From NCBI RefSeq assembly GCF_032999765.1, contig NZ_CP136051.1, positions 2,518,417-2,582,416 on the forward strand: a stretch of 64,000 nt of DNA. Reading direction: 5' to 3'. This document shows positions 5,167-45,300 of the stretch, piece by piece; positions within the stretch are counted from its first letter, which is position 1, and each line of letters starts with the position of its first letter. The notes under the pieces were generated by a model that searched no databases, had not been told where the DNA came from, and saw nothing but the letters and a program-made list of their open reading frames with translations. This stretch comes from Imperialibacter roseus (GTDB lineage Bacteria > Bacteroidota > Bacteroidia > Cytophagales > Cyclobacteriaceae). A program made the translations under genes and the position numbers.

Positions 5167-6654
5167 TTAAAGTGTCACAAAACCCACAATCAGGTACAGC
5201 ACCACTGTGATGCCACCAGCCACAAGTGCATAGGGCATCTGGGTTCGCACATGGTCGATGTGGTCAGAAGCAGATGCCATAGACGAAATCATCGTAGTGT
5301 CGGAAATGGGAGAGCAGTGGTCTCCGAATACGCCGCCACCCAATGCAGCAGCAATGGCTACATGAGGATCGGTTCCAAATGACTGCGCCATGGGCACAGC
5401 AATGGAGATCATAATCGCAAAAGTGCCCCAGGAGGTGCCTGTAGAAAAAGCAATGAAACAGCTCACTGCAAACACGATGGCCGGCACCAGCGCAGGCGAC
5501 AACCAGCTTTTTGTCACTTCCGCAACGTAAAAACCTGTGCCTAATGTCTTACAAAGGCTTCCAATGGCAAAGGCCAGCACCATGAGCAGTGCCATGGAAA
5601 TCATCCCGCTCATGCCTTTTAGCGTCAGGTTAATCATTTCTTTGCCGGTCATGATGCCCTGCAGGCCATACATGGTAGCCGCCACAGCCAGCGAAGTGAT
5701 CACGGCATAGGTAACAGAGGCAGAGCCTGATCCACCGCCTATGGCCTCGAAGACGGCGTCAAACATGCCGGGCTGCTGCGACCAGTTGATACTACTCCAG
5801 CCAGTATAAACCAGAAAAATGGGCATCATCACAACCATGGTCACGATGGGCACGAGCATATTGATGGCCCGCTGGGGCTTGCCCTCAATGGGTGCTATGA
5901 TGGTAATCTCCTCTGATATCATCGGCGTGGCGCCATCTGCAATTACTTTGCCCTCCACACGAGCCCTGGTTTCGGCCTTTTTCATCGGCCCAAAATCTTT
6001 GTTGGTAATGATGATCCAAAAAAGAAAAGCAACGGCCAGCAATGGATAAAAGTTAAATGGGAGCGAGGCAAAAAGTGTAGAAAAAGGCCGCTCAAAGCCT
6101 TGCATAAGCAGCAAGCCCATGATATAGGCTCCCCAGGCATTGAATGGAATCAAAATGCATGAAGGCGCTGAGCTGGAGTCGCATATGTAAGCCAGCTTTT
6201 CCCTGGAAATTTTCAGCTGATCAAATAGTGGTCTGTATAATGTACCTGTGGTTAGCACTGAAATATTGGACTCAACGAAAATGAGCATCCCCGTTATGCC
6301 CGCCAGCAGCCTCACATAGAGGCTCTTTTTTTCTACATTATCCTTGTGAGCGCTCTCCATTTTTTTGTTCACATAAACAATGAAGCCCTCCACACCGCCA
6401 GACCGCTGAATGAAGGCAATCAGAGCACCGATAAACAAGGTGAAGATCACCGTTCTGGTATTTCCGTCATCTTTGAACACGTCCACCATCGCCTGCACAG
6501 TATTCAGCGACCCTATGAAAGGATTCCATCCCGCCAGAATGACGTAGCCCAGCCAGATGCCTATGATCAGGGCAACAAACACCTGCTTGGTGCGAATAGC
6601 GAGAAAAATGGCGATAACAGGAGGGAGGAGCGAGAGAAAGCCGTAGTGATCCAT
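5167..6654 (-). CDS. nhaC: Na+/H+ antiporter, NhaC family
   Basis: A 495-residue polytopic inner-membrane protein with about a dozen hydrophobic segments. It carries features of the NhaC/ion-transporter superfamily: a segment with SNISVLTTGT near residue 128, DSSSAPSCILIPFNAWG near 160-180, and the signature GGGVFGDHCSPISDTT near 440. The family exchanges sodium for protons across the cytoplasmic membrane and supports pH and sodium homeostasis, which fits a marine or salt-exposed organism. It is transcribed away from the NlpC/P60 gene, and the 135-base divergent gap must hold both promoters. Related members have been annotated as malate/lactate antiporters, so substrate is less certain than fold. 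Confidence 0.85.
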   Translation of the reverse strand: MDHYGFLSLLPPVIAIFLAIRTKQVFVALIIGIWLGYVILAGWNPFIGSLNTVQAMVDVFKDDGNTRTVIFTLFIGALIAFIQRSGGVEGFIVYVNKKMESAHKDNVEKKSLYVRLLAGITGMLIFVESNISVLTTGTLYRPLFDQLKISREKLAYICDSSSAPSCILIPFNAWGAYIMGLLLMQGFERPFSTLFASLPFNFYPLLAVAFLFWIIITNKDFGPMKKAETRARVEGKVIADGATPMISEEITIIAPIEGKPQRAINMLVPIVTMVVMMPIFLVYTGWSSINWSQQPGMFDAVFEAIGGGSGSASVTYAVITSLAVAATMYGLQGIMTGKEMINLTLKGMSGMISMALLMVLAFAIGSLCKTLGTGFYVAEVTKSWLSPALVPAIVFAVSCFIAFSTGTSWGTFAIMISIAVPMAQSFGTDPHVAIAAALGGGVFGDHCSPISDTTMISSMASASDHIDHVRTQMPYALVAGGITVVLYLIVGFVTL

Positions 6655-39988: not shown

Positions 39989-40597
39989 ATGAAAAGAATG
40001 AAATTAACGGGGGTATCCTTGGCGATTGGCCTGGCGCTTTTGATGACTAACGGGGCGTTTGCTCAAAAATCCATTTTCAATGGCAAGAACCTGAAAGGGT
40101 GGAAGATTTACGGCACTGAAAAGTGGTTTGTAGAAGACGGCTTACTGGTGTGCGAAAGTGGGCCGGATAAAGGATACGGTTATTTTGCAACAGAGAAAAC
40201 TTACAAGGACTTTGACCTTACGCTCGAGTTTCAGCAGGAGGCCAATGGAAACAGCGGTGTGTTTTTCAGGTCGAGCATCGAGGGCACAAAGATCACTGGC
40301 TGGCAGGCGGAAGTGGCACCTCCGGGACATGATACTGGCGGAATTTACGAGTCCTACGGCAGAGGCTGGTTGATCAAGCCAGATCCTGAAAAGGACAAGG
40401 CCCTGAAGATGGGAGAGTGGAACACGATGCGCATCAAGGTGGTGGGCGATGAAGTGACTACCTGGGTTAATGGTACCGAGATGATCTCTTTCAAAGACGA
40501 GAAGATCGGGCAGGCGACGGGGTCAATTGCCCTTCAAATTCACGACGGAGGTGGTATTCGTGTGAAGTGGAGAAACATCATGATCAAGGAGCTTTAA
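39989..40597 (+). CDS. DUF1080 (3-keto-disaccharide hydrolase-like) secreted protein
   Basis: A 202-residue protein with a clear signal peptide (cleavage after GAFAQ, residue 26). The rest is a laminin-G/concanavalin-like beta-sandwich of the DUF1080 family: SIFNGKNLKGWKIYG near 28-42, NSGVFFRSS near 88-96, GWQAEV near 104 and a closing LQIHDGGGIRVKWRNI. Related proteins hydrolyse 3-keto-glycosides, products of periplasmic sugar 3-dehydrogenases. The pairing with the ThuA/dehydrogenase gene fits such a pathway. Confidence 0.88.
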   Translation: MKRMKLTGVSLAIGLALLMTNGAFAQKSIFNGKNLKGWKIYGTEKWFVEDGLLVCESGPDKGYGYFATEKTYKDFDLTLEFQQEANGNSGVFFRSSIEGTKITGWQAEVAPPGHDTGGIYESYGRGWLIKPDPEKDKALKMGEWNTMRIKVVGDEVTTWVNGTEMISFKDEKIGQATGSIALQIHDGGGIRVKWRNIMIKEL

Positions 40598-40668: not shown

Positions 40669-40700
40669 TTTGTCAAAAAGTATTGAATGCTCTAACTTCG
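40669..40700 (+). promoter_or_regulatory. Promoter of the putative small RNA
   Basis: TTTG at 40669-40672 and TAACTTCG at 40693-40700 are exactly 20 bases apart. The match to TTTG-N20-TAnnTTTG has a single deviation (C for T). No coding start follows, so it appears to drive a noncoding transcript beginning near 40705. Confidence 0.6.
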
Positions 40701-40783
40701 TATTAAATCCTGAGCAGGCAGATGGTTCTAAACCTAACATGAATACAATTCCGGGTTAACCTTCTTGCCAAAACCAGGCCTCA

Positions 40784-40821
40784 TCCGCCAGCTGGCGGAC
40801 CTCGCCCGCCAGCTGGCGGGC
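40784..40821. repeat. Pair of GC-rich palindromes (REP-like)
   Basis: TCCGCCAGCTGGCGGA at 40784-40799 and GCCCGCCAGCTGGCGGGC at 40804-40821 are perfect palindromes sharing the 12-base core CGCCAGCTGGCG. They can each form a hairpin or pair with one another. Such tandem palindromes resemble dispersed intergenic repeats of Bacteroidota genomes. Confidence 0.8.
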
Positions 40822-40907
40822 AGGTTAACAGTGGAAGGTTGCGATAAGGAGGAGCCTAAATCTTGTCTAAAAGAGGTTTAGTTACCTCATTCCTGAGCAG
40901 GTAAAAG

Positions 40908-40935
40908 GCTTTCGGGTTCGCCCGAAAGCTTTTTT
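40908..40935 (+). terminator. Rho-independent terminator of the small RNA
   Basis: GCTTTCGGG (40908-40916), loop TTCG, CCCGAAAGC (40921-40929), then six T. The nine-pair stem is perfect with a UUCG loop. Confidence 0.9.
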
Positions 40936-41031
40936 GTTTTCAGTCTCATCGTGTAAAAGTCAGCAGGTTCATGCTGAGCGATCCTATCAAAAATGGTTGA
41001 TAGCAGAAAAACAAAAATACCCACTGCCTCT

Positions 41032-42369
41032 TCAGTTTGTGCCTTTGCTGGCTGGCTTCAGAACCTTGTTGATGGAATTTGTGCCTACGGCCCGGCCTTG
41101 TTTTACTCCCTCGTCGCAGGCGTCTCGGTAGTGAATGCCGCCGTAAAGCCTTGAAATGGCCGCTTCGGCTGCAGCCTCGTAAAACGAATTGAAATCCCTT
41201 TCCGGTAATCCGAAATACACCTCAGAGTCGTCTCTAAAAGCGAAATTATCGCCGAGAAGTGTTGTGAGCACAACAGAAGAGGCTGCAGACACTACGCTGT
41301 GCCCGCTGGTGTATTCAGGAAAGGGAGGTGTTTGGAGAATTGGTCGCCATTCGGAGTCGATGTATTTGTTGATCATGGTTTCAGGCCTGATCCTATCGCT
41401 GCGGTATTTTTCATCCCAGCAACTAATAAAGCCGTCGTGTAGGGTAGTGCTTACCATGACATGAACAAAGAGGGTGGAGTCGAAGGAAATGTTAGCCTTT
41501 TCGCAGGCGATGCCCGCAATACTCATCCAATGGCCGCCAGGAGAGATTTTCTTCAATCCAATGGCCATATGGCCCGAATAGGCCACGGCAAAGGGGTTGC
41601 AGTCCCAAAAGCTGGCAATCAATTTGTGCTCTGGCGTTATGTTCTTCACAACATCATACACCTCCATGGTTTGCTTGTAAAACGAGCTCGTAGTGTCGAG
41701 GCTGAAAGGAGCCGGGGCTGCCGGCACAAACTGGTCATACGACTCGAGAAAGAATGGTCTGATGGTTTTCCATTGCGGCTCGATGGCCGACATGTATTCA
41801 GGAGGTGTGGGGTACCACCGACCTTCCTCTTTGCTTGGCGTGTACCTGGTGTAGGTGCTCAGCTTATTGTACCCATCGCCTTTGGCATACTGAATGATTT
41901 GGTCTGCTATTTCAATGGCGTACTTCTTATTGGCGTCAATAGACCTGGATGAAAGCTTGTATTGCTCTTTGAACTGAGCTTCCAACTGCTCCTGATTGCT
42001 TTTGAGCAGGTAGCCCGAGGGCATGATCTTTTTTCCCACCTCCAGCATAGCATAGGTAGCGGCAAAAGTCAGGTCAAAGCCTTTTGCGGAGTAGGGGGCA
42101 TGAACGCCAGGGTTTACTTTGAAGTTTGGGCCAATTTGAGGAATGTCGCTACCACTGGTGCTAGCTGTGTAGTAAGCACCCAGCATTGCATAAGCATAAA
42201 ACCGGCTGGCAGCAGGCGGGTTAGCCACATCGTGAAGCATCACCTCCGACAGGTGGAAGACGTTCTCGGCAAACACTTTGGCCGCTTCCGTATTGCTTAG
42301 GCTGGTCTGCGCAGAGGTGGTAAATTGCATAGTGCCCAACAAAACACCCAGTATAACAATCTTTCTCAT
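41032..42369 (-). CDS. Vanadium-dependent haloperoxidase-like PAP2 enzyme (secreted)
   Basis: A 445-residue exported protein (signal peptide ending near TTSAQ). The C-terminal half has the vanadate/phosphate-binding triad of the PAP2/vanadium chloroperoxidase fold: KYRSDRIRPE near 330, PEYTSGHSV near 355 and SRLYGGIHYRDACDEG near 410-425. Bacterial members are annotated as haloperoxidases or phosphatases; the halide is not predictable. Its ATG overlaps the stop of the VCBS/ASPIC gene (TGATG), so the two are coupled; a GTG one codon earlier is possible. Confidence 0.88.
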   Translation of the reverse strand: MRKIVILGVLLGTMQFTTSAQTSLSNTEAAKVFAENVFHLSEVMLHDVANPPAASRFYAYAMLGAYYTASTSGSDIPQIGPNFKVNPGVHAPYSAKGFDLTFAATYAMLEVGKKIMPSGYLLKSNQEQLEAQFKEQYKLSSRSIDANKKYAIEIADQIIQYAKGDGYNKLSTYTRYTPSKEEGRWYPTPPEYMSAIEPQWKTIRPFFLESYDQFVPAAPAPFSLDTTSSFYKQTMEVYDVVKNITPEHKLIASFWDCNPFAVAYSGHMAIGLKKISPGGHWMSIAGIACEKANISFDSTLFVHVMVSTTLHDGFISCWDEKYRSDRIRPETMINKYIDSEWRPILQTPPFPEYTSGHSVVSAASSVVLTTLLGDNFAFRDDSEVYFGLPERDFNSFYEAAAEAAISRLYGGIHYRDACDEGVKQGRAVGTNSINKVLKPASKGTN

Positions 42370-45300
42370 CACTTATTCAATTTATACGCTTCGATACCCA
42401 CATTATTCACACCCACGAGCAGGAACTGCTCACCTGCCACATCTATCACGTCAAGCGACTTGGTATCTCCAGTGAACCTGAAGCCAGATTTTGATTGCGA
42501 TACATATTTGAAATGTCCCTTGCCGTCACCTTCATACAGTTGGCCAAAGTTGGCATCGATAACCCCCATGCGAATGCGAATAGAGCTTTGGTTACCCGCA
42601 ACAACCAGGTCCATGTTTCCATCTTTGTTGTAGTCGACCAGCGTCATTGCATAAACAGGAGCGAACTGTGCTTCATCCGGCAAGGCGTGAGAAATGAGTT
42701 TGCCATCTCTATTTTCCAGGTACATACTCCGCAGCTCGGTGGCCTTCAGCTCTTTGGCATCCTTTAAGTCAGCTTTTGAGAAGATGGTGCTCAGCCTGGC
42801 ATCGGCGTAGGAAGAATAGTCAGTATACTTGCTTCGCATAGCGTAAATCTGATCAAGCAGTTCGTCTCTGCTGGCAAATGGAACCGATTCGCCTTTAATG
42901 TAGTAGTTGAGGATGGGATCCACCGACCCATTGTTATCAAAGTCCTTGTAAACAAGGGTGATGGGCTCTTTTTCGCTGGCATGAAGCTGGGTATTTAGCC
43001 CGAAGTTCCCCACAACAATGTCAGGGTCGCCGTCTTTGTCAAAATCATGCACTACCATTTTGCTCCAGAGACCTGAGATTGGCTTGTCGAAATATTGGCT
43101 CGTTGACCGCTCCAGCGATTTTCCCTGCTTATTAATGAACACTTCAATGGTCATAAACTCGCCAACCACTACCAAATCATCCCACTTGTCGCCATTCAAA
43201 TCCACCCAGGAAGCATCTGTCACCATGCCAATAGTGCCGAGTTCTTTGGCTTTGGCAGCCGTTACGTCGACAAACTTGCCGTTTCCTTTGTTCTCAAGGA
43301 AAAAGCTTTGTGGCACTTCGGGATACCTTCCGGGAATAACTCTTCCGCCCAGCACAAGATCCATGTCTCCATCTTTGTCAAAGTCGGCATAGGCGATGCA
43401 TGATTTACTAACGAGCATGTCAGGTAAGGCATCCATCGCTTTGGTGAAGTTTCCTTTCCCATCGTTCAGGTAAAGCCTGTCTTGTGTGGCTTTATCCTTC
43501 TCACTGTAATCATTGTAGCCACCGCTAACAAGGTAAAGGTCGAGGTCGCCGTCTTTATCGGCGTCGAAGAAGCTGGCACCTGCGTCTGTATACTGTAGGT
43601 CGGACTGCGTGACCGGAAAGTTGCCAGGCTCGAACGAACCAGCGGCCGACTGAATGAACAGCATCCCGGGGTTCTCCTGTGCGCCGCCCACGAAAATATC
43701 TTCTCTGCCATCTCCATTCACATCACCCGTCGTCATGATCGGGCCGCAGTTGGTGAGCATCGTCATCAGGAGTGGCTGACGTTTGAAGTCGTTGAAACCA
43801 TACTCGAGGTGTTCGTAGTAGACAGGGCATTCTACTCTTGAAAAGTTTGTTGGCTCAAATGACGTCCTGGCAGAAGCAAACAGGTAAGGCTTTTCAGGAT
43901 TTGTTTCTTCTATCGTAATAGTTTGATTCGCAGCGATGCCTGAAAGCTTTTGCTCAGCACCACTCAGCCATGTTACTCTGATTGAGTCTATTTTGTTCTG
44001 CTGCCCAAGTCCGACATGAAGCCTGCCGGTAACGGACGACTGAAAGCCTCTGGTGGGCATCTGCTCAAAATATTGTACCTGTTCGCCTGCATACACATGT
44101 ACTTTTGCACCGTAGCCCCTTGAGTTTTTTGAAAGGCCTTTCAGCGTAATGTCCAGGTAGTTGCGGTCGGGGTATCTTTGTTGGGTTTGATTTCTATAGA
44201 TGGAAACGGCGTTATTTTGATTGTTGACGATCAGGTCAATATCTCCATCCTTGTCAAGGTCGGCATAAGCAGCGCCGCTGGAAAAGCCTGGATTGGCAAA
44301 GCCCCAGTCGTTGCTCATGTCCGTGAATGTCAGATCGCCATTATTTTTATAGATATAGTTATGAACGGGCGTGGACGTCATGGTGGAGACCAGGTGAAAG
44401 GTGTCGGCAGGCTGCTTTTCTCTGGCCATATCAAAGAAGTAGTCGCCCTTGTATTTCAGGAAGTCACGGTTGGTGTAGTCACGGAAATAGCCATTGCTGA
44501 TGAACAGGTCTTTCCAGCCGTCGTTGTCGTAGTCGGCAAAGAGGGGAGACCAGCTCCAGTCGGTGTTGGAAATGCCAGAAAACTGCCCAATCTCGCTGTA
44601 GGTTCCATCGGTGTTGTTCAGATGGAGCATGTTGCGCATGTTCTGAAAATAGAAGCCGTTGATGACCAGCAGGGCAAAATGCTCGTAATTTTCCGGCCCG
44701 TAAAGCAGCTTTTGGCGCTTGTTGTCCTCCGGCAGCATGTCGAGCGTGTAAATGTCGGGCCAGCCGTCGTTGTTGATATCGCTGATGTCGCAGCCCATGG
44801 AGAAGTAGGAGATGTGCTGCATGTAGTTGGTCATCTCATCAGTAAATGTGCCGTCGCCATTGTTGATGTAGAGATAGTCGGGCTCTACATAGTCGTTGGA
44901 TACGTAAATGTCCTGAAAACCATCCTGGTTCACATCTGCAATGTTGACGCCTAATCCGAAACCAAGCGGATTGCCTTTGATACCTGCTGAGGCGCTAATG
45001 TCGACAAAGTGCCCGTTGTCGTTCCTGTAAAGCTTGTCGCCAGCGTAGGGATCACGTGTTTCTTTTGCCTTGGCAAACTCAAACTCACGGATCACAGTAA
45101 TGTTGTGATTGAGCAGGTACATGTCCAGATCACCATCATTGTCGATGTCGAAAAAGGCCGAGTGGGTGCTGTGTGATGGATCATCCAAGCCGTATTCTGC
45201 CGCCTTTTCTGTGAAGGTCAGGTCTTTGTTATTGATGAAGAGTTTATTCCTTCTGGTATCGGGCGCAGTTTTCCCTGAAAGGCATACATAGATGTCGAGC

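Follow-up and report, generated by a model that had tools for sequence, protein, structure and literature searches.

Results

A Putative Free-Standing Transcription Unit. Between a 3-keto-disaccharide hydrolase gene (39989–40597, plus strand) and a convergent gene of the PAP2 superfamily (41032–42372, minus strand), Imperialibacter roseus carries a unit of about 230 bases (~40705–40935), preceded by the hydrolase gene at a distance of ~110 bases. Coordinates are those of the window, the whole 64,000-nucleotide stretch of DNA that was analysed. Three elements delimit the unit:

40669–40672, plus strand: −33 element TTTG, read from the sequence
40693–40700, plus strand: −7 element TAACTTCG, 5/6 against TAnnTTTG
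40903–40934, plus strand: intrinsic terminator, from a terminator scan

The original prediction had described this layout as a promoter, about 230 bases without a usable reading frame and a perfect nine-pair terminator, and all three parts are present. TTTG and TAACTTCG are spaced by 20 bases (promoter span 40669–40700), no open reading frame of at least 60 amino acids from ATG, GTG, or TTG overlaps 40669–40933, and the terminator has the nine-pair core GCTTTCGGG/CCCGAAAGC among 14 pairs in total, in a scan for which 1.7 terminator-like sites are expected by chance over the 1.4 kb covered. We take the TTTG/TAACTTCG pair to be a Bacteroidota-type promoter; a sigma-70 promoter scan of the locus found none. 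Lying downstream of the hydrolase gene on the same strand, the unit could be read as a cis-acting leader or 3′-UTR element of a neighboring gene. However, it has promoter-like and terminator-like sites of its own, the next gene is convergent, and the neighbors vary among relatives while the RNA persists, leaving the cis-acting reading with almost no credibility.

Homologues Across the Family, Order, and Phylum. A DNA search of 39 genomes (that of I. roseus, its family, and its order) gave a match in 20. Eighteen of these loci were kept for alignment (G029 and G036 were left out) and were joined by six from matches to the Rfam model RF01685 (6S-Flavo). The resulting 24 loci, I. roseus included, have one common core, and from these own-family loci only we built a covariance model, R1. 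At E ≤ 0.01, R1 has matches in 31 of the order's 194 genomes (16 family genomes, among the matches listed, and 15 from other families) and gives none in the other 163. In G029, R1 gives a weak match at another place (L097), outside open reading frames, which was kept in alignment A3 (below).

A pattern scan of named genomes yielded at least 118 stretches, and the matches listed include many Cyclobacteriaceae (Algoriphagus, Echinicola, Cyclobacterium, Belliella) as well as Fulvivirga, Marivirga, and Flammeovirga. Among the 80 stretches that were searched with R1, 76 fall below E 1e-9; L174 (4e-4) and L109 (9e-4) were kept, and two from Treponema (L150 and L181), in which R1 covers only the head at E > 0.05 and the sequence is coding-like, were left out. 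A wider model, R2, made from 51 R1-aligned sequences with flavobacterial-type loci included, picks up 85 of the 395 phylum genomes searched at E ≤ 0.01 and nothing in the other 310. Genomes without an R1 or R2 match either lack the RNA or have a form that the models miss. Both models match only the present locus in the I. roseus genome at E 0.01, with no second copy.

For comparisons of motifs and gene order we used loci picked by sequence rather than context: 27 flavobacterial-type loci (all 17 loci of the RF01685 test and 10 R2 loci from further genomes), eight from other families of the order (7 of 14 R1 loci plus L034), and a distant set of 20 (17 of the 23 R2 matches outside the class and three within it). 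R1 recovers 18/20 distant loci at E ≤ 0.01 in this small search space, with three of the matches confined to the head. These matches are weak, and because R2 was derived from R1 their recovery shows consistency but adds no independent proof.

A Closing Stem, a Central Bubble, and a Forked Head. The RNA divides into the following parts:

40709–40727, plus strand: closing stem P1, 5′ strand, starting with CCTGAGCAGG (swap test, single-sequence fold)
40728–40735, plus strand: P2, 5′ strand CTAAACCT, presumed pRNA template region, pairing with AGGTTTAG (weak in the swap test)
40736–40752, plus strand: central bubble, 5′ strand (alignment with RF01685 and R1)
40753–40775, plus strand: apical rod, 5′ strand, with pairing blocks GGGT, CCTTCTT, and AACC (covariation)
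40776–40783, plus strand: conserved junction strand AGGCCTCA (alignment, motif count)
40784–40799, plus strand: head hairpin A, containing the palindrome CCGCCAGCTGGCGG (helix 4 of the covariation test)
40800–40824, plus strand: head hairpin B, CCT..AGG, with the same palindrome inside (helix 5 of the covariation test)
40825–40835, plus strand: conserved junction strand TTAACAGTGGA (alignment, motif count)
40837–40857, plus strand: apical rod, 3′ strand, with blocks GGTT, AAGGAGG, and GCCT (covariation)
40858–40873, plus strand: central bubble, 3′ strand AAATCTTGTC..., presumed −7-like element (near-identical string in the R1, RF01685, and RF01693 alignments)
40874–40881, plus strand: P2, 3′ strand AGGTTTAG (single-sequence fold, swap test)
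40882–40901, plus strand: P1, 3′ strand, ending with CCTGAGCAGG (single-sequence fold, swap test)

The single-sequence fold of 40700–40940 reaches −102.3 kcal/mol (z −6.5; 0/200 shuffles as low), and the string CCTGAGCAGG occurs twice, at 40709–40718 and 40892–40901. Comparative evidence outranks the fold energy because the head hairpins and the terminator supply much of that energy. We compared the pairing of each arm with its own partner and with swapped partners; 78 loci were read, and two were dropped (L109, with no recognisable bubble string, and L147, with too little upstream sequence). Among the matches listed (n = 76), the P1 arms average −24.5 kcal/mol with their own partner versus −14.8 swapped, and own pairing beats all 40 swaps in 26/76 (median rank 1). 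Corresponding values are −9.9 versus −7.9 for the inner rod (10/76 beating all swaps) and −8.8 versus −6.2 for P2 (7/76).

Covariation analysis, which the original prediction had proposed as a check, points the same way. Across alignment A3 (51 sequences, 50 distinct), 18/20 inner pairs change on both sides and 89.8% of cells pair, counts that lean toward the R1 structure because A3 was fitted to it; the covariation score reaches 0.517, compared with 0.224 for shuffles and no more than 0.143 when partners are slid. A closing stem and an apical stem around a central bubble are kept by covariation, P2 weakly. The nested pairing of the 5′ and 3′ ends that had been claimed is thus borne out by the P1 swap test and the covarying inner pairs. 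One claimed block, AACCTTC/GAAGGTT, does not survive: it appears in the single-sequence fold only, and relatives pair in a different register, joining AACC (40772–40775) with GGTT (40837–40840) and CCTTCTT (40760–40766) with AAGGAGG (40846–40852) instead. The pairing of hairpin A with hairpin B in the same fold is also unsupported by relatives. Of the long interrupted rod first described, the end-to-end pairing stands, but the RNA is not a plain rod because its head bears two hairpins.

The junction strands AGGCCUCA and UUAACAGUGGA flank these two hairpins. The 24-locus alignment has 34 invariant columns, including strands flanking the head on both sides, and hairpins A and B vary in length and sequence among species. 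Allowing at most one mismatch each, the motifs AGGCCTCA and CAGTGGA are both found in 18/24 family loci, 7/8 loci from elsewhere in the order, both L174 and L109, and 17/20 distant loci; they are found in 0/27 flavobacterial-type loci. The stretch between the motifs folds into at least two hairpins in 17 family, 6 other-order, and 13 distant loci, and in both L174 and L109. The fork may be ancestral and have been lost in flavobacteria. The RF01693 model likewise draws two hairpins in its head, so a forked head as such is already on record.

The palindrome CCGCCAGCTGGCGG occurs at five places in the I. roseus genome, two of them in the head (40785–40798 and 40806–40819), where the shared sequence lets hairpins A and B join as one long stem. 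Hairpin B of a same-genus copy (L005) has another stem, so the second palindrome may be recent. In some relatives (e.g., L010, L108, and L160) hairpin A carries a dispersed repeat, CCCGATAGCTATCGGG, present in 14/41 family genomes with as many as 26 copies, against none for the reversed control, and hairpin A may be an acceptor of repeat palindromes.

Relation to Known 6S RNA Families. The original prediction had named 6S-Flavo as one candidate identity and suggested an Rfam covariance search. That search finds no match in the window at gathering cut-offs, and the best Rfam match of the locus is indeed RF01685, aligned over the full length of the model (1–108, with 4 columns marked non-standard) at 28.7 bits, well under the cut-off of 85 bits. 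At E 10 this locus is the only match of RF01685 in the genome. RF00013 (6S; cut-off 46.4 bits) yields no hit genome-wide at E 10, and RF01693 (Bacteroidales-1; cut-off 60 bits) does not list the window at E 10. Weak Rfam matches to PyrR, YenS, sau-19, osmY, CRISPR-DR9, and three microRNA families lie far below their cut-offs and were set aside.

Weak RF01685 matches alone prove little, because four sub-threshold matches arose at E 10 in 14 control genomes. None of 59 genomes of the family and order passes the RF01685 cut-off, and 25 have a match at E ≤ 10. The match falls on the homologous locus in 15 family genomes, I. roseus included, and on a locus also found by R1 (L034, 38.1 bits) in G035, from another family; in the other 9/25 it lies elsewhere, where R1 gives nothing below E 0.1. 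In the reciprocal comparison, R1 recovers 16 of the 17 RF01685 loci, each with matching coordinates and strand, and has no further match up to E 10 in the 53 kb; 7 of the 17 pass the RF01685 cut-off. The one locus that R1 misses, L076, has an RF01685 match at 38 bits and neither zapA nor rny, and may be spurious. Two of the distant loci found by R2, neither of which had entered a model and both of which R1 matches too, pass other Rfam cut-offs: the fork-headed L262 scores 47.1 bits with RF00013, over the cut-off of 46.4, and L265 passes the RF01693 cut-off.

An unrelated, family-specific trans-acting small RNA, having only a rod shape in common with 6S RNA, would account for the sub-threshold Rfam score and for the long conserved junction strands, which to our knowledge E. 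coli 6S RNA lacks. Against this stand the agreement of reciprocal models on the same loci, the bubble string that the RNA shares with RF01685 and RF01693, the fork-headed locus that passes the RF00013 cut-off, and the zapA–rny context of distant members (below). We regard an unrelated RNA as very improbable. The reciprocal models, the distant loci passing RF00013 and RF01693, and the zapA–6S–rny order of distant homologues make 6S RNA the clear choice, and the probable structured small RNA first proposed is most likely a 6S RNA.

The likenesses and differences are specific to each family. With 6S-Flavo (RF01685) the locus shares an end-to-end alignment, the bubble strands (AAANCUUGU), and the start of the apical stem, but it scores far below the cut-off, and the flavobacterial-type loci lack the fork motifs and, in 26/27 cases, lie between zapA and rny. 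With RF01693, annotated "6S-Bacteroidales RNA suggested," it shares the two head hairpins and the 3′ bubble string CUCAAAUCUUGUC; the RF01693 locus L265 is found by R1 and R2, but is without the junction motifs, even allowing one mismatch each, and shows neither zapA nor rny. With 6S/SsrS (RF00013) it shares the closing stem, central bubble, and apical stem. The RF00013-passing relative L262 is fork-headed and lies between zapA and rny, whereas the I. roseus locus has a forked head, no RF00013 match, and no zapA beside it.

The Gene Lies Away from the zapA–rny Cluster. Upstream zapA and downstream rny (RNase Y) flank the RNA in 26/27 flavobacterial-type loci (families f24, f25, and f26), in both L174 and L109, and in 15/20 distant loci (zapA in 18/20, rny in 16/20). 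These flanks are found at 0/24 own-family loci and 0/8 examined loci from other families of the order. The ZapA profile was made from five proteins (L060, L061, L174, L109, and I. roseus), so a match is built in for the four named loci; ZapA has Pfam support in L060, L174, L109, and I. roseus, and RNase Y was Pfam-checked for samples. In the I. roseus genome, pheT, an ORF, zapA, and rny follow in order near 6.55 Mb without the RNA, 86 bases separating the zapA stop codon from the rny start, and the RNA locus is at 2.559 Mb. The Ignavibacteriales contig L109 has the same order, pheT included, and there the RNA lies between zapA and rny. Because zapA and rny adjoin without the RNA here and flank none of the 24 family loci, the 6S gene has moved from zapA–rny. 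The "orphan" unit originally described is therefore an orphan in an unforeseen sense, absent from its usual zapA place.

The 6S RNA gene of beta- and gamma-proteobacteria comes directly after zapA (PMC7641849). The order zapA–6S–rny spans much of the phylum, and its match to the beta- and gamma-proteobacterial zapA–ssrS order suggests a perhaps very old linkage. From its spread, we infer that the zapA place is ancestral.

A perfect TAnnTTTG lies within 80 bases upstream in 64/76 homologues among the matches listed, nearly all of the Cytophagales set, compared with 5% of shuffles in which dinucleotides were not preserved; a shorter upstream stretch gives 40/76 among the same matches. In the 80-base stretch the element is found at 14/23 own-family loci (23 of the 24), at 0/26 flavobacterial-type loci, and at 1/22 of the distant loci plus L174/L109. 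The RNA probably gained its own promoter after moving. In the zapA arrangement it would be processed from a longer transcript or start elsewhere.

Other strings and genes recur near the RNA. The boxA-like string GTTC[TA]TT, seen between zapA and the RNA in loci such as L060, L067, and L262, lies upstream in 21/26 flavobacterial-type loci (shuffles 1.4%), in 5/22 of the distant loci plus L174/L109, and in 3/23 own-family loci; it is possibly an antitermination or processing signal. At six family loci (L014, L016, L017, L033, L123, and L136) the RNA adjoins a convergent gene with serA-like ends, 2-Hacid_dh by Pfam in L136, the one locus checked, and at some of these loci inspection by eye shows an aminotransferase-like gene at the opposite flank of the RNA. 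In a Fulvivirga contig (L143) a SAM riboswitch (6530–6637) lies just downstream of the RNA.

A new place and a promoter of its own, together with one palindrome in both head hairpins of I. roseus, might indicate a 6S RNA by descent whose role at the polymerase was altered or lost after the gene moved. The bubble and junction strands are conserved across the family, however, and we judge such a change of role even less probable than an unrelated RNA.

Discussion

The unit is thus very probably a free-standing 6S RNA gene, encoding a fork-headed RNA that would mimic an open promoter and hold back RNA polymerase. A Bacteroidota-type promoter would start the RNA near 40705, and the intrinsic terminator would end it near 40935. 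The closing stem P1/P2 is formed by the two ends of the RNA, the central bubble by the middle, and the apical stem with its two-hairpin head by the far part. By homology, the RNA would bind the housekeeping RNA polymerase holoenzyme as open promoter DNA does, with the 3′ bubble strand AAATCTTG playing the −10/−7 element and the apical stem the upstream DNA. Transcription would be blocked as growth slows, and release would follow synthesis of a short pRNA, templated by the 5′ bubble strand and running into P2.

In E. coli and B. subtilis 6S RNA, the 3′ bubble strand contains a −10-like element, the apical arm has a −35-like region, and the 5′ bubble strand serves as the pRNA template (PMC8876501). 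Sequencing has detected both 6S RNA and pRNAs in Bacteroides thetaiotaomicron (PMC7366714), which suggests that the mechanism is at work in the phylum. The candidate element AAATCTTG (40858–40865) has 4/6 fixed positions of TAnnTTTG, and across loci the −7-like string is the best offset only marginally (3.81 of 6 versus 3.78 and 3.62 elsewhere).

A broader evolutionary proposal, to which we give about even chances, is that the fork-headed form is the ancestral Bacteroidota–Ignavibacteria 6S RNA, which flavobacteria lost; that the conserved junction strands AGGCCUCA/UUAACAGUGGA form a separate binding site, which E. coli 6S RNA is not known to have; and that the Cytophagales gene left the zapA–6S–rny cluster, gained a promoter, and was uncoupled from the cell-division operon.

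6S RNA regulates transcription globally. Our literature search found no publication on 6S RNA in Cytophagales, and an earlier survey could still list them. Three features make the locus of interest: the gap it reveals in Rfam, its forked head, and the relocation of the gene. The Rfam models miss 6S RNA in this family, where no family or order genome exceeds the RF01685 cut-off, and the locus and its relatives help fill that gap while linking three Rfam families, RF00013, RF01685, and RF01693. The conserved junction of the forked head offers a concrete, testable site.
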